Of a stretch of DNA of 8,953 bases, positions 1 to 6,255 are shown in pieces (positions within the stretch are counted from its first letter, which is position 1; each line of letters begins with the position of its first letter). This DNA comes from Veillonellaceae bacterium (GTDB lineage Bacteria; Bacillota_C; Negativicutes; Veillonellales; Veillonellaceae). The position numbers and the translations under genes are program-made. The notes beneath the pieces were generated by a model that made no database searches, was not told where the DNA came from, and was given only the letters and a program-made list of their open reading frames with translations. Location of the stretch: NCBI GenBank assembly GCA_902834965.1, contig CADFKY010000035.1, positions 1-8,953 of the forward strand. Reading direction: 5' to 3'.

Positions 1-762
1 GGTGAATTAGATGTAAGCAATCATCCACTCACAAGACCTGCCATGATTGAATCGGAAGCGATTAAGCGCTTTAGTACAATTGGTGCTGCATTAGACTATC
101 CTGTACATATTGTTCATGTAAGTTCTAAAGAGGGCCTTGAAGAGGTTATTCGAGAACGGAACCTAGGGCATAAAGTGACTTGTGAAACATGTCCACAATA
201 TTTAGTGCTCGATGAATCACGATATAATTTGCCTGATTTTGAAGGTGTTAAATATGTGATGAGCCCACCGCTGAGAACAATTCAGGATCAAATGGCATTA
301 AAGGATGCATTAGTAAATGGTCTATTCCAAACGATTGGTTCTGATCATTGTAGCTTTACCTTTAATGAACAAAAATTAAAGAGTCGACATGACTTTACCC
401 GTATTCCTGGAGGTATTCCAGGCGCAGAGGAACGGGGTATCATCGCTTATAATGTGTTGGTAAATCAATGCAATATGAGCGCTGTAGATTTTATGAAATT
501 AGTTAGTGAAAACCCTGCAAAGCTTTACGGTATGTATCCGAAGAAGGGCACGTTAGCCGTTGGCAGCGATGGGGATATTACAATTGTTGATAAGCACATT
601 GAGCATGTGCTTTCAAAAGAGTCCGCCCATACAAAGGCTGACTATATACCTTATGAGGGCATATCCGTAACAGGTAAAGTTCGAGATGTTATCCTTAGAG
701 GTCACCATGTGGTACAAGATGGATCCTTATTAGAATCATATCTTGGTGAATGTATTCCTTAA
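1..762 (+). CDS. hydA: Dihydropyrimidinase / D-hydantoinase family amidohydrolase, 5'-truncated
   Basis: This is the C-terminal 253 residues of a cyclic amidohydrolase; the frame is open from base 1, so the start lies upstream. The family hydrolyses the cyclic amide bond of dihydropyrimidines or hydantoins with a two-metal centre. Visible hallmarks are IVHVSS (fragment residues 37-42), whose His matches a metal ligand, then GETCPQY-like CETCPQY, YVMSPPLR, IGSDHCSF with the metal-ligand Asp, DFTRIPGGIPG, and the C-terminal ENPAKLYGMYPKKG and GSDGDI segments. The two early metal-binding His residues and the carboxylated Lys would be in the missing part. It lies 17 bp before the xanthine dehydrogenase start, so the two are probably one operon. 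Hydantoinase genes (such as E. coli hyuA) also occur near selenium-dependent molybdenum hydroxylases, so the substrate may be a purine-derived or hydantoin-like ring rather than dihydrouracil. Family assignment is secure; substrate is not. Confidence 0.93.
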   Translation, partial: GELDVSNHPLTRPAMIESEAIKRFSTIGAALDYPVHIVHVSSKEGLEEVIRERNLGHKVTCETCPQYLVLDESRYNLPDFEGVKYVMSPPLRTIQDQMALKDALVNGLFQTIGSDHCSFTFNEQKLKSRHDFTRIPGGIPGAEERGIIAYNVLVNQCNMSAVDFMKLVSENPAKLYGMYPKKGTLAVGSDGDITIVDKHIEHVLSKESAHTKADYIPYEGISVTGKVRDVILRGHHVVQDGSLLESYLGECIP

Positions 763-779
763 TGAGAGGAGGGCTATAT

Positions 780-3329
780 ATGTACCGCTTTCAAGTGAAT
801 GGCACCCAACATGAGGTTCAAGAGGATCAACGTTTAATTGATTTCTTGAGAGCTGATTTGAAATTGACGGGCACTAAAGAAGGTTGTAGTGCTGGTGCTT
901 GTGGTACGTGTACAGTAATTATAGACGGAAAAAAAGCAAAGGCTTGTGTAACTAAACTATCCCAATTAGATGGTAAATCAGTCGTAACAATTGAGGGCTT
1001 ATCTGAACGGGAAAAAGCGGTATACACCTATGCTTTTGGTGAATGCGGAGCGGTGCAGTGTGGTTTCTGTATCCCAGGTATGATTATTAGTGCAAAAGTT
1101 TTGATTGATGAAAATAATGACCCTACACCTGACGATGTTAAAAAGGCTATTTTAGGTAATATCTGTCGTTGTACTGGTTATGTGAAAATTGAAGAAGGCA
1201 TTATGCTGGCAGCAAAAATGTTCCGTGAGAACTTACCAGTTCCTGAAAAGGATACAAATGGTAATGTAGGTGCTCGTTTACACCGCGTTGATGCGGAGGA
1301 AAAAGCACTTGGTACTGGAAAATATGCTGACGATATCCATATGGATGGCATGATTTACGCAAAAGCGTTGCGTTCTAAATTCCCTCGTGCTAGAGTCGAT
1401 CGCGTTGATGTGTCTAAAGCACTTTCACATCCTAAGTGTGTAACGGCTTTGACTGCTAAAGATGTACCATTCAATAAGACTGGTCACTTAGTGCCAGACT
1501 GGGATGTACTCATCGCAGAAGGTGATAATACTCGCTATGTTGGCGATGCAATTGCATTAGTAGCAACTACAGAGAAGAAATATTTGGACGAAGTTCTTGC
1601 TCTCGTTGAAGTTGATTATACAGAGTTAGAGCCTGTAGTAGACCCATTAGAAGCATTGAAACCGGATGCACCTCAATTACATCCAAATGGAAATGTATTG
1701 ACTCGTCAAACATTATCTCGTGGTGATGTAGATAAGGCTATTGCTGAGGCCGCATTTGTAGTGACAAATCACTATTCCACACCTCAAACAGACCATGCGT
1801 TCATGGAACCTGAATGTGCTGTAGCATATCGTGAAGGTGATGTAATTCATCTCTATTCAGGTAGCCAAAATGTTTACGATGATCGTCATGAAGTATCTCG
1901 TATGCTTGGCATTCCTGAGGAATCTGTAAAAGTTCATAGCATGCTTGTAGGTGGTGGCTTTGGTGGTAAAGAGGACATGAGCGTACAGCATCATGCATCT
2001 CTTGTAGCATGGCTCACAGGCAAACCAACTAAGGTTCTCTTCTCCCGTCAAGAAAGTCTTAATATTCATCCTAAACGACATGCGATGGAGATGGATATTA
2101 CTACTGCTTGTGATGCAGAAGGTAACTTGGTAGCAAGTAAGGTGAACATCGTATCTAACTGTGGTGCATATGCATCCTTAGGTGGTCCTGTACTTCAACG
2201 TGCAGGTACACACTCTTGTGGTCCTTACAAATTTGATAACTTTGCCTTTGATGGTGTTTGCGTTTACACAAATACTGTTCCTGGTGGTGCATTCCGCGGG
2301 TTCGGTGTAACACAAACCATCTTTGGTCAAGAACAAAACATTGATGAATTAGCTGCATTGGTAGGCATGGATCCTTGGGAGTTCCGTTATAAAAACGTTG
2401 TTCGCCCTGGTGATTCCTTACCAAACGGCCAAATTTGCTCCGAAGAAACTGCATTAGCAGAATGTTTGGAAGCCGTAAAAGATGCGTATTATGCATCTGA
2501 TCGTACGGGCCTTGCAGTATGCTTGAAAAATAGTGGTATCGGTGTAGGTTTACCTGATACTGGTCGCGTTATCTTAGAAGTACGTGATGGTAAAGTTCGT
2601 ATCCGTACTGGTGCAGCATGTATCGGTCAAGGTATGGCGACTATGGCTACTCAAGTGCTTTGTGAAACAACTGGCTTAACAGCGGATAAAGTATTTGTGG
2701 AACGTCCAGATACAGTACGTACACCAGACTCTGGTACAACTACTGCATCCCGTCAAACAGTATTCACTGGTGAAGCAACGCGTAAAGCAAGTCTTCGCTT
2801 GAAAGAAATGTTAGAAACTAAGACCTTAGAAGAATTGAATGGTGTAGAAATTTATGAAGAGTTCCTTGGTGAAACTGATCCATTCAACTCCGATAAACCA
2901 CATCCAAAAAATCACGTTGCTTACGGTTATGGTGCTTGTGTAGCTAGAATTGGTGAAGATAATAAAGTTGCTGAACTACATGTAGCATACGATGTAGGTC
3001 GTGTTGTAAATCCTCAATCTTGTGCTGGGCAAGCCGAAGGCGGTGCTATCATGGGTATGGGCTATGCAGTTACAGAAGACTTCCCTTATAAGGATGGCTA
3101 TGTAACAGCTAAATATGGCACATTAGGTCTTCTTAGAGCCACACAATGTCCCCCAATTCATGTAAGCCTTATTGAAAAAGGGACACCAGAACAATATGCA
3201 TATGGCGCTAAGGGTATTGGCGAAATCTCTAGTATCCCTATTGCACCAGCTATTGCAAATGCATATCGTCGTATCGACGGAGAACCACGTAGGTCCTTGC
3301 CGATTCAACATACAGGTTATAAAAAATAG
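780..3329 (+). CDS. Selenium-dependent-type xanthine dehydrogenase: fused [2Fe-2S] and molybdopterin domains
   Basis: A molybdenum hydroxylase of 849 residues, expected to oxidise xanthine or a related purine in the cytoplasm. Domains: plant-ferredoxin-type [2Fe-2S] (about 1-75; Cys36, 41, 44, 56), second [2Fe-2S] with CGFC (Cys94, 97) and CRC (Cys129, 131), then the molybdopterin domain from about 165. Xanthine oxidase-like motifs follow: GGGFGGKE 391-398, AFRGFG 504-509 (Arg506), IGQGMAT 615-621, a Ser/Thr-rich segment 651-660, and GIGE with the likely catalytic base Glu815. There is no FAD domain, so electrons must pass to a separate subunit or acceptor. Length and fusion match the selenium-dependent xanthine dehydrogenase family, in which selenium is a labile cofactor ligand, not selenocysteine; no in-frame TGA is present. 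The ATG at 780 is chosen over an upstream in-frame start at 750 because AGAGGAGGG lies at 765-773, 6 nt before it. Purine specificity is supported by the downstream permease but not proven. Confidence 0.93.
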   Translation: MYRFQVNGTQHEVQEDQRLIDFLRADLKLTGTKEGCSAGACGTCTVIIDGKKAKACVTKLSQLDGKSVVTIEGLSEREKAVYTYAFGECGAVQCGFCIPGMIISAKVLIDENNDPTPDDVKKAILGNICRCTGYVKIEEGIMLAAKMFRENLPVPEKDTNGNVGARLHRVDAEEKALGTGKYADDIHMDGMIYAKALRSKFPRARVDRVDVSKALSHPKCVTALTAKDVPFNKTGHLVPDWDVLIAEGDNTRYVGDAIALVATTEKKYLDEVLALVEVDYTELEPVVDPLEALKPDAPQLHPNGNVLTRQTLSRGDVDKAIAEAAFVVTNHYSTPQTDHAFMEPECAVAYREGDVIHLYSGSQNVYDDRHEVSRMLGIPEESVKVHSMLVGGGFGGKEDMSVQHHASLVAWLTGKPTKVLFSRQESLNIHPKRHAMEMDITTACDAEGNLVASKVNIVSNCGAYASLGGPVLQRAGTHSCGPYKFDNFAFDGVCVYTNTVPGGAFRGFGVTQTIFGQEQNIDELAALVGMDPWEFRYKNVVRPGDSLPNGQICSEETALAECLEAVKDAYYASDRTGLAVCLKNSGIGVGLPDTGRVILEVRDGKVRIRTGAACIGQGMATMATQVLCETTGLTADKVFVERPDTVRTPDSGTTTASRQTVFTGEATRKASLRLKEMLETKTLEELNGVEIYEEFLGETDPFNSDKPHPKNHVAYGYGACVARIGEDNKVAELHVAYDVGRVVNPQSCAGQAEGGAIMGMGYAVTEDFPYKDGYVTAKYGTLGLLRATQCPPIHVSLIEKGTPEQYAYGAKGIGEISSIPIAPAIANAYRRIDGEPRRSLPIQHTGYKK

Positions 3330-3341
3330 AATATTTGCTTA

Positions 3342-3369
3342 ATGGGTAGGGGCTACGGCCCCTGTCCAT
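3342..3369 (+). promoter_or_regulatory. Very stable hairpin with UACG tetraloop between xanthine dehydrogenase and permease
   Basis: Bases 3342-3353 pair with 3358-3369 over 12 bp, including two G-U wobbles, around the loop TACG. The closing pair is C-G, giving the cUNCGg type of tetraloop known for exceptional stability. No T-tract follows on either strand, so it is not a standard intrinsic terminator. It lies 13 bp after the dehydrogenase stop codon. Possible roles are an RNA processing or 3'-end protecting stem inside the operon, partial attenuation, or part of a structured permease leader. The pairing is seen directly; the role is inferred. Confidence 0.6.
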
Positions 3370-3406
3370 CAAGGTTCCCACGTGAAGTCTATGAGATTTT
3401 TAAACT

Positions 3407-3431
3407 CTATCAAGTACGATAGTATGACTAT
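3407..3431 (+). promoter_or_regulatory. Two overlapping alternative small hairpins in the permease leader
   Basis: CTATC (3407-3411) can pair with GATAG (3418-3422), while ATAGT (3419-3423) can pair with ACTAT (3427-3431). The shared bases 3419-3422 make the two stems mutually exclusive. They lie 44-68 nt before the permease start. Each stem is only 5 bp in AT-rich sequence, so chance is a serious alternative. The rest of this 145-nt gap has no recognisable riboswitch consensus and no convincing -35/-10 pair. Confidence 0.25.
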
Positions 3432-3474
3432 ATTATTTACTAGTAACTAAAACGTAAGATATGAGGTGATTCTT

Positions 3475-4860
3475 ATGAGTAAAGGTGTATCTGGTGTCAA
3501 CCATGTAGATGGTATGTTGCCAATCCCGCAATTATTTGCTTATGGTTTACAGCACGTGTTAGCCATGTATGCTGGTGCCGTAGCGGTACCAATCATTATT
3601 GCGCAAGCCATGCATTTGCCAATTGAAGATTTAATTCGTTTGATCACAGCCGATTTGTTCACATGTGGTGTAGCTACATTGATTCAAACATTAGGCTTTG
3701 GTCCTGTTGGTGGTCGTATTCCTCTTATTCAAGGTGTAACATTTGCTTCTGTAGGTCCAATGATCCTGATTGGTCAACAGCATGATATTAATACCATTTA
3801 TGGTGCTATTATCGTAGCCGGGCTGTTTACATTTGTTGTAGCACCATTCTTTAGCCGTTTGATTCGTCTATTCCCGCCTGTAGTAACAGGTACCATCATT
3901 ACTATTATTGGTATTAACTTGATGCCAGTAGCGGTTAACTGGATGGGTGGCGGCGTAGGTAACAAAAACTTCGGCGATCCACTATACATAGCTCTTGGTG
4001 TAGCTACATTTATTCTCGTTATTTTGACATATCGATTTGGTAAAGGGTTCCTTGGTAATCTGGCTATTTTGGTAGGGCTTATCCTCGGTACTGCTCTAGC
4101 TATGATTTGTGGTATTACTGACTTCTCTGAAGTAGGTCGTTCTCAATGGATTTCCGTTGTAACACCATTCTACTTTGGCATGCCTACCTTTGATTTTGCA
4201 TCTATTATTTCTATGATCATTGTAATGCTTGTAGTTATGGTAGAAACAACAGGTGATAGTATTGCGGTTGGTGAAATCGTAGACAAACCTATCGGCCAAA
4301 AAGAATTGGCTGCAGTGCTTCGCGCTGATGGTTTATCCACTTTAATCGGTGGTATCCTTAATAGCTTCCCTTACACTGCATTTGCTCAAAACGTTGGTCT
4401 TATTGCTGTAACACGTGTAAAAAGTCGCTTCGTTGTAGCCGCATCTGGTGTAATCTTGATTTTATTAGGTTTATTCCCTAAGTTAGCAGCTATTGTAGCT
4501 TGTATCCCAAATGCTGTATTAGGCGGTGCAGGTATCGCAATGTTTGGTATGATTATTGCCAGCGGTATTCGCTCCCTTGGTAAAGTTAACTTCGATGGTA
4601 ACTACAACTTGATGCTCGTAGCAATTAGTATTGGGGTATCCATGATTCCATTGGCAGCGCCTCAATTCTATGCACACTTCCCAGCTTGGGCACAAATTCT
4701 TTTGAAATCTGGTATCACAGCTGGTAGTATCGTAGCCGTTCTTTTGAATGTAGTATTCAATGGCTTCGGTTATAAAACAGTTAATGAACCTAACCGTGCA
4801 ACACGTAAATATCGTCACTTCACACGATTCAAAGGTTATCCTAAACATTTCTATCAATAA
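3475..4860 (+). CDS. NCS2-family nucleobase:cation symporter, likely xanthine/urate permease
   Basis: An integral membrane protein of 461 residues with the usual NCS2 length and many hydrophobic segments. It should import a purine base (xanthine, urate or a relative) using a cation gradient. The N-terminal GLQHVLAMYAGAVAVP (24-39) contains His27, equivalent to the TM1 His of XanQ. IQGVTFASVGPM is at 85-96. VETTGD carries Glu257 in the TM8 position, LRADG carries Asp285, and QNVGLIAVTR (305-314) is the NCS2 signature with Gln305 and Asn306. These are the substrate-site residues of the family. The ATG at 3475 is chosen because GAGGTG (3463-3468) sits 6 nt upstream; an in-frame GTG at 3466 overlaps that ribosome binding site. 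The gene follows the purine-oxidising enzyme and probably feeds it. Similarity is greatest by eye to the PbuX/XanQ/UacT group; uracil (UraA-like) transport is less likely given the neighbours. Confidence 0.92.
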   Translation: MSKGVSGVNHVDGMLPIPQLFAYGLQHVLAMYAGAVAVPIIIAQAMHLPIEDLIRLITADLFTCGVATLIQTLGFGPVGGRIPLIQGVTFASVGPMILIGQQHDINTIYGAIIVAGLFTFVVAPFFSRLIRLFPPVVTGTIITIIGINLMPVAVNWMGGGVGNKNFGDPLYIALGVATFILVILTYRFGKGFLGNLAILVGLILGTALAMICGITDFSEVGRSQWISVVTPFYFGMPTFDFASIISMIIVMLVVMVETTGDSIAVGEIVDKPIGQKELAAVLRADGLSTLIGGILNSFPYTAFAQNVGLIAVTRVKSRFVVAASGVILILLGLFPKLAAIVACIPNAVLGGAGIAMFGMIIASGIRSLGKVNFDGNYNLMLVAISIGVSMIPLAAPQFYAHFPAWAQILLKSGITAGSIVAVLLNVVFNGFGYKTVNEPNRATRKYRHFTRFKGYPKHFYQ

Positions 4861-5037: not shown

Positions 5038-5067
5038 TAAATAATATTATTGCAAAGGAGACGCATT

Positions 5068-6255
5068 ATGAAAGACGAGCGATTTATAGTTACGTATCGA
5101 ATAGAAGCAAGTTCATATGAAGAGGCAAAAGCCATTGCCTGGGCTGTTCAGGTAGAACAAACCATAGAGTTTCCTTATGAGTTTGTTACGGATCCGTACA
5201 TTAAAGGTACTATCACTGGCAGATTGGAGTCATTAGAACCTATGAGTTCTGATTCCACATATGCCAATGTAGGGGTTATGCCTAATGTTACGATAAATCC
5301 GTCTCATTACTATGTGGCTCGTATTTCATATCTTGTAGATACAACAGCGCTAGAAGCAACGCAATTCTTAAATGTTGTCTTTGGTAACTCATCGTTACAG
5401 CCACATATTTGGGTGGTGGATATTGAACTTTGTTCCACTCTATATGATGTGTTTAAAGGACCTAGATTTGGCTTGCATGGGCTTCGTCGATTAGTGGATA
5501 CGCCAACGCGTCCTATGATTCAAGCTGTTGTGAAACCGATGGGGACACCGAATGAAGAGCTCGCTCGTATGTGCGGTGCTTATACACGTGGTGGAGCAGA
5601 TGTTATCAAAGATGACCACGGTATTTCTAATCAGTCATTCTCTCAATTTAAAGATCGTGTACAACGATGTGCTGCCATGGTACGTGAAATGAATGAAGCC
5701 CATGGTACACATACATTATATGCAGCTAATGTGTCTGGTGATGGTACAGACGTAATAGAGCGAGCTTATTTTGCAAAAGATGCAGGTGCTACAGCTCTTA
5801 TGGTGGCTTCCGGTCTTGTGGGATTTGGATGGCTTCATAAATTAGCAAATGATGAAAAGTTAGGCTTACCAATCATTCATCATCCTGCTTACTCTGGTGG
5901 CTTTATGAGCCCTGGTGTATCTGGTATTGCCGACTATTTGCAATTGGGATTGTTACCACGTATCTTTGGTGCAGATATGCCTATCTTTGTATCCTATGGT
6001 GGACGTTTTACTTTCACCGAAGATCAATGTAAGAGAATTTCCTCTTATATTAAACATCCATTTGGATTGATGAAAGCAGCCTGTCCAGCACCGGGTGGTG
6101 GTGTAACAGATGCTCGTCTCAATGAACTGGTAGAGTTGTATGGAAATGATACGATGTTCCTCGTTGGTGGTGACATGTTCCGCCGTGGACCAGATATTGA
6201 AGCTAATATGGCATACTTTGTAGAACGGTTGAGTGAATTATCTAAAACCAATTAA
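5068..6255 (+). CDS. RuBisCO-like protein (form IV, RLP) with a KDDH active-site motif
   Basis: A 395-residue homologue of the RuBisCO large subunit, shorter than the roughly 470 of true RuBisCO and typical for RLPs. The N-terminal alpha/beta domain spans about 1-135 and the TIM barrel 140-395. By motif alignment to spinach numbering, Lys156 matches K175 (VVKPMG) and Lys181, the carbamylated K201, is kept in GGADVIKDDHG with Asp183 for D203. E204 is replaced by His184, K177 by Met158, and R295 by Pro273 in HHPAYSGG. Loop 6 reads GGRFTF, without the GKLEG lysine motif. Phosphate-binding glycines remain in APGGG (341-345) and VGGD (366-369). Carboxylase activity is therefore not expected. Known RLPs act as enolases/isomerases in methionine salvage or on isoapionate-type sugar phosphates; which applies here is unknown. 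The start ATG has AAGGAG (5055-5060) 7 nt upstream; an in-frame TTG at 5050 is rejected. It lies between a terminator and walJ, 82 bp downstream, with no partner enzyme visible. Confidence 0.9.
   Translation: MKDERFIVTYRIEASSYEEAKAIAWAVQVEQTIEFPYEFVTDPYIKGTITGRLESLEPMSSDSTYANVGVMPNVTINPSHYYVARISYLVDTTALEATQFLNVVFGNSSLQPHIWVVDIELCSTLYDVFKGPRFGLHGLRRLVDTPTRPMIQAVVKPMGTPNEELARMCGAYTRGGADVIKDDHGISNQSFSQFKDRVQRCAAMVREMNEAHGTHTLYAANVSGDGTDVIERAYFAKDAGATALMVASGLVGFGWLHKLANDEKLGLPIIHHPAYSGGFMSPGVSGIADYLQLGLLPRIFGADMPIFVSYGGRFTFTEDQCKRISSYIKHPFGLMKAACPAPGGGVTDARLNELVELYGNDTMFLVGGDMFRRGPDIEANMAYFVERLSELSKTN

Follow-up and report, generated by a model that had tools for sequence, protein, structure and literature searches.

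The stretch of DNA analysed here (the window; 8,953 nucleotides, contig CADFKY010000035.1 of assembly GCA_902834965.1, Veillonellaceae bacterium) carries the gene of a RuBisCO-like protein (RLP) from Veillonella, a common mouth and gut genus, and the features of this gene are collected in Table 1. The genes of the window lie in the order hydantoinase-like gene (truncated by the window start), xanthine dehydrogenase of the single-chain, selenium-dependent type (TIGR03311, 1276.8 bits), xanthine permease, RLP, metallo-beta-lactamase (MBL)-fold protein, RlmH (a SPOUT methyltransferase), CBS protein and trigger factor, the last represented by its start and named by eye. The closest genome surveyed has 71% of the window's 31-letter words in common. 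The search of the window for Rfam RNA gave 0 matches at the gathering score, and the promoter and terminator scan of the window was uninformative (4 found against 5.2 expected; 2 against 1.0).

Table 1. Coordinates of the RLP gene and its features in the window
Feature	Position	Strand	Remarks
RLP gene, KDDH (DeepYkr-type) clade, predicted 5-methylthioribulose-1-phosphate 1,3-isomerase	5068..6255	+	395 residues, Veillonella
K181-D182-D183-H184-G185 codons, metal-site signature of the clade (KDDH replacing KDDE)	5608..5622	+	alignments
K156 codon, counterpart of the RuBisCO general-base lysine	5533..5535	+	invariant in 53 sequences and 40/40 rows
G311-G312-R313-F314 codons; Arg at the loop-6 Lys column of the RuBisCO row	5998..6009	+	alignments
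Ribosome-binding-site-like AAAGGAGA ahead of ATG	5054..5061	+	sequence

A role of the RLP tied to the purine genes that sit directly upstream of it in the window (hydantoinase-like gene, selenium-dependent xanthine dehydrogenase and xanthine permease) is very improbable, as these genes flank the RLP at only 7 of the 21 named Veillonella loci, and the link to purine or xanthine was dismissed on this count; downstream of the RLP, the MBL, RlmH and CBS genes were found at all 21 loci and Tig at 20 (none was found in L041). By the same 7 of 21 loci, the purine genes at positions 1-4857 of the window form an accessory island.

The active site was compared in an alignment of 40 rows, 33 from the clade of this RLP and 7 from outside it (one RuBisCO, three OiaX-type and three MtnW). 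The RuBisCO numbers used here are those we take to apply (K175 for the counterpart of K156; E204, R295 and Lys334). With residues counted from the ATG at 5068, the alignment bore out the sequence-only reading, a model's earlier note on this DNA, in that K181 and D183 are retained while E204 is H184 and R295 is P273; the loop-6 lysine, which it had reported as absent, is indeed lost, R313 standing at the column where the RuBisCO row has K. The results showed that His at 184 and Arg at 313 are present in 33/33 clade rows, while all 7 outside rows have Glu at the former column and either K (RuBisCO, OiaX-type) or S (MtnW) at the latter. The motif reads KDDH in 32 of the 33 clade rows and KEDH in Ponticoccus. 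Since His-184 occurs throughout the clade and Glu in every outside row, KDDH is a signature of the clade and not a peculiarity of this RLP. K156, K181-G185, H272-P273 and G311-F314 are unvarying in the alignment of 53 sequences, and the window RLP carries both KDDH and GGRF, an active-site signature which was defined from the alignment rows and not from the literature.

In the tree, the 33 His rows split from the 7 KDDE rows with a branch support of 95/98, and the RLP falls together with the RLP1-type proteins of Rhodopseudomonas palustris, whereas MtnW, OiaX-type proteins and RuBisCO lie outside this group. Structure searches covered RuBisCO relatives, and the R. palustris structure 3qfw falls inside the KDDH clade; it was assigned to the RLP1 type by elimination, as the non-Photo RLP of R. 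palustris, and the DeepYkr label rests on this assignment together with PMC5893883 (here and below, papers with PMC numbers are cited from parts of their text). The 3qfw protein is a 100% match to a protein on a contig of 5,513,844 bases and may come from a strain other than the R. palustris strain of that paper. Further clusters under the name R. palustris have 64-71% identity to the 3qfw protein.

It is exceedingly improbable that the protein is an MtnW enolase, an OiaX decarboxylase or a true RuBisCO. The fold is in common and the NCBIfam models of all three give matches, but the scores are far under the curated cut-offs (182.4 of 409 and 138.2 of 513.6 bits for the two MtnW equivalog models, 79.6 of 700 bits for OiaX, and 108 of 438 bits for RuBisCO), E204 and R295 are both lost, and the protein lies outside all three clades. 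The earlier expectations that it would not be a carboxylase and would stand apart from the MtnW group thus hold, as does that of an anaerobic host, which is supported. The resemblance of KDDH to enzymes of apionate catabolism fell away, the OiaX row having KDDE and branching separately. The phylogeny with active-site columns, which had been proposed as a check, placed the RLP inside a characterised clade with the residues of that clade, and in relatives the partner genes are found elsewhere in the genome. The suggestion that the reaction may be new is not supported, given that KDDH marks the clade of 3qfw and the RLP1 reaction is published (PMC5893883).

Clade, signature, fold and, in relatives, partner genes are direct observations, from which we infer the reaction of this RLP and each mechanistic step below. 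The RLP is very probably a 5-methylthioribulose-1-phosphate 1,3-isomerase of the oxygen-independent isoprenoid shunt that starts from 5'-methylthioadenosine (MTA), and most likely it recycles the by-product of spermidine synthesis into an isoprenoid building block rather than fixing CO2. R. palustris RLP1 and Rhodospirillum rubrum RLP are described as converting 5-methylthioribulose-1-phosphate to 1-methylthioxylulose-5-phosphate in this shunt (PMC5893883). Neither the enzyme type nor the idea that it substitutes for Dxs is new. The reaction of the R. rubrum protein is presumably a carbonyl shift via enolisation. Of the metal-dependent chemistry on an unidentified substrate that the sequence-only reading proposed, the enolisation is likely to stand, while the unidentified substrate is not supported.

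In the proposed route, spermidine synthase would yield MTA, which MtnP and MtnA would convert to 5-methylthioribulose-1-phosphate; the RLP would then shift the carbonyl to the next position, yielding 1-methylthioxylulose-5-phosphate together with some of the ribulose epimer, the cupin would strip the methylthio group to release methanethiol and 1-deoxyxylulose-5-phosphate (DXP), and Dxr would pass DXP into the methylerythritol phosphate (MEP) pathway. Within the RLP, K156 may act as the general base, the metal would be bound by K181 (possibly carbamylated), D183 and perhaps H184, the phosphate would sit on the glycine motifs, and R313 would stand in for the loop-6 lysine.

The partner genes were surveyed in 60 relatives, and the statements that follow concern these genomes. 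The RLP was found in 46 of them, and a cupin, searched with the protein from a Gemmatimonadota RLP-cupin-mtnA run, in 45 of these 46 with E at most 4e-20, while the 14 genomes that are without RLP gave 0 cupins at this threshold and two weak other matches (G046, G056). Both mtnA and mtnP were found in 58 of the 60 genomes (G055 and G058 are without), dxr in 46/46 RLP genomes, and RLP, cupin, mtnP, mtnA and dxr together in all 28 Veillonellaceae genomes. The cupin of Veillonella parvula SKV38 matched 3jzv (Rru_A2000) with E 1.5e-36 and 63 of 139 aligned positions identical, and other PDB cupins, 3kgz and 3ibm aside, begin at E 1.8e-6; Rru_A2000 is described as the methylsulfurylase of R. rubrum (PMC4958253). 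In relatives mtnP and mtnA lie together, away from the RLP, and in V. parvula the next genes after them are ahcY and that of an amidohydrolase which scores under every listed NCBIfam deaminase cut-off. Cupin and speE are within about 6 kb of each other in 7 of the 16 f2/f3 genomes (G030, G032, G033, G035, G036, G047, G049). In G050 (L098:7277-8525) a carbon-nitrogen hydrolase, which on visual inspection resembles the omega-amidase of methionine salvage, directly follows the cupin. In the single-contig assembly G013 the speE match spans only positions 1-151 inside an open frame of 2714 residues (C1:1574999-1575457), and speE looks disrupted there though cupin and RLP are retained.

Several observations weigh against this assignment. 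Sequence comparison, which covered R. palustris proteins, gave only 34% identity between the RLP and two of these, and the Veillonellales rows form a separate subclade (86/99). In V. parvula SKV38 the RLP (at 751,745) and the cupin (at 1,698,444) are about 947 kb apart and thus non-adjacent, a distance which speaks to arrangement and not to function. The co-occurrence counts of RLP and cupin are not independent, reflecting few gains or losses and mainly the absence in genus g7, and no enzyme assay of a Veillonella RLP was found in the literature searched. The pathway evidently varies within the clade, as other rows have mtnK-mtnA-split transketolase genes or genes of the rhamnose type beside them. 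A Hyphomicrobiales KDDH RLP (L042:201-8511), for example, has an aldolase/dehydrogenase fusion after it and a rhamnose-isomerase-like gene farther downstream on the opposite strand (by eye from translations), which suggests a use in deoxysugar breakdown.

On alphaproteobacterial plasmids (L115:954-5110, L116:955-5110, L117:2055-5131) an RLP of the clade stands behind a split transketolase pair, an arrangement which suggests another fate for 1-methylthio- or 1-deoxyxylulose-5-phosphate. It is improbable that the Veillonella protein serves this pathway, in which the product would be cleaved and not desulfurised: NT-25 and Mariluticola have the order mtnK-mtnA-TktN-TktC-RLP, but the plasmid rows branch away from the Veillonellales rows, the cupin is present in 28/28 Veillonellaceae genomes, and among the window's own genes, to which the comparison of neighbours was limited, there is no transketolase.

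A more serious alternative, though still an unlikely one, is that the RLP also or mainly handles a sulfur-free analogue, in which case 5'-deoxyadenosine from radical S-adenosylmethionine (SAM) enzymes would be turned by MtnP and MtnA into 5-deoxyribulose-1-phosphate and by the RLP into DXP, with no cupin being needed. By chemistry, the identical carbonyl shift on 5-deoxyribulose-1-phosphate would give DXP; R. rubrum MtnP is reported to act on adenosine about 30 times slower than on MTA and 5-deoxyadenosine (PMC4958253), and in Methanocaldococcus jannaschii one MtnA-type enzyme serves both pathways (PMC6302742). The genome G029 retains RLP, mtnA, mtnP and dxr without a cupin, speE or Dxs-like match, other sources of MTA not having been sought, and is the sole genome of the 60 without a speE match. 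It is 99% complete in 60 contigs, with the RLP on contig 48, and its contig 18, compared by homology to G035, carries yggS, two sepF-like genes, a YlmH-like gene and divIVA unbroken by an N run, and the genes normally located between speE and cupin are retained in one continuous piece; gyrA (by eye) is found at the expected place of speE and other genes at that of the cupin, and proC is missing too. G029 thus hints at direct DXP synthesis from 5-deoxyribulose-1-phosphate, a route proposed on chemical grounds, but it is one draft among 46 RLP genomes, and the cupin, required for methylthio substrates only, is present in all 45 others. The literature searched gave no test of 5-deoxyribulose-1-phosphate and, within the parts available, no paper tying 5-deoxyribulose to DXP through an RLP.

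How far the MTA-isoprenoid shunt may supply DXP was considered from the distribution of Dxs. Ordinary-type Dxs was not recognised in the RLP genomes, the best TIGR00204 match (G005) being of the PRK12315 subfamily, and this G005 protein was used as direct query for Dxs-like genes. Within the family, 14 of 28 genomes have a full-length, stop-free copy, two an interrupted one (G012 in two frames, G019 with one in-frame TGA), and in 12 (G002, G003, G004, G006, G007, G013, G015, G018, G020, G022, G024, G026), V. parvula SKV38 among them, no such gene was found; G007 and G013 are single-contig assemblies. Within the family, copies other than the query's own have 47-86% identity to the query, and two are present in G010, so the gene looks accessory. 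Of the 46 RLP genomes, 17 have an intact copy, 2 an interrupted one and 27 none, G053 and G055 of the last group being only 75% complete. The remaining match of V. parvula is a split transketolase, as are those of G039 and G050, where an apparent distant Dxs with an in-frame stop proved to be two adjoining genes and was counted as none.

The shunt may be the DXP source of the 12 family genomes that are without Dxs. A stronger proposal, which we consider possible but doubtful, is that the RLP is a conserved and essential entry to isoprenoid synthesis, with Dxs-less Veillonella (V. parvula included) making all their DXP from SAM by-products, namely MTA with the cupin and 5'-deoxyadenosine via direct isomerisation of 5-deoxyribulose-1-phosphate. 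Against the RLP as DXP source, 10 of the 14 genomes of genus g7, all without RLP, have dxr but no Dxs-like gene, RLP or such cupin (G031, G034, G037, G040, G044, G046, G052, G054, G058, G059), so that the order must contain a further source of DXP unless the pathways in question are idle. The g7 genomes that carry a PRK12315-type gene (G042, G048, G056 and G060, in the last in two frames) are exactly those without dxr, which suggests that this type serves something outside the MEP pathway, in Veillonella too. In addition, R. rubrum keeps dxs and lowers it on MTA feeding (PMC4334135), so the shunt is a supplement there.

Veillonella and Dialister have been named among the organisms with homologues of RLP, cupin, MtnP and MtnA (PMC5893883, 2018), a form IV protein, in which Veillonella is prominent, has been used as a strain marker and termed a methionine-salvage protein (PMC4384745), and depletion of MTA is reported for V. 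atypica and V. montpellierensis (PMC8260719). A survey counts 181 species in which Dxs alone is lacking, RLP and cupin occurring together in 5 of these; it proposes the shunt as a possible stand-in for Dxs and names the survival of some MEP-pathway bacteria without Dxs as an open question (PMC10663253, section 3.1). The distribution of Dxs and shunt genes across Veillonella was not found in the available parts of these papers, the essential-gene literature had nothing on Veillonella among the matches listed, and the literature searched gave no test of the DXP/methanethiol route in Veillonella. Veillonella genomes contain in full an anaerobic route by which DXP would be formed and methanethiol released, and if Dxs-less species do depend on the shunt, an essential pathway would be fed solely through a RuBisCO relative, which would help explain how some MEP-pathway bacteria manage without Dxs. 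In general, the analysis suggested an enzyme of a known kind that may be unusually important to this host.

In comparison with named systems, R. palustris RLP1 shares with the Veillonella RLP the clade, KDDH and R313 (in the R. palustris rows) and the fold (3qfw), and the genomes of R. palustris RLP1 and R. rubrum RLP (Rru_A1998) have the same kinds of partners (mtnP, mtnA and an Rru_A2000-like cupin) as the Veillonella relatives. The differences are that the Veillonella RLP comes from an anaerobe, many relatives of which are without recognised Dxs, and that RLP and cupin are close together in R. rubrum (A1998, A2000) and R. palustris (RPA2169, RPA2170) but not in V. parvula SKV38. MtnW (YkrW), the 2,3-diketo-5-methylthiopentyl-1-phosphate enolase, has the fold and KDD in common with the Veillonella RLP, as well as a Pro where RuBisCO has R295 and a role in methionine salvage. 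It differs in its oxygen-dependent pathway, in its KDDE and in its Ser at the loop-6 column, where the Veillonella RLP has KDDH and Arg, respectively. OiaX, the 3-oxo-isoapionate-4-phosphate decarboxylase, belongs to the same superfamily as the Veillonella RLP but to a separate clade, and it has KDDE, with Arg and Lys at the R295 and loop-6 columns, respectively.
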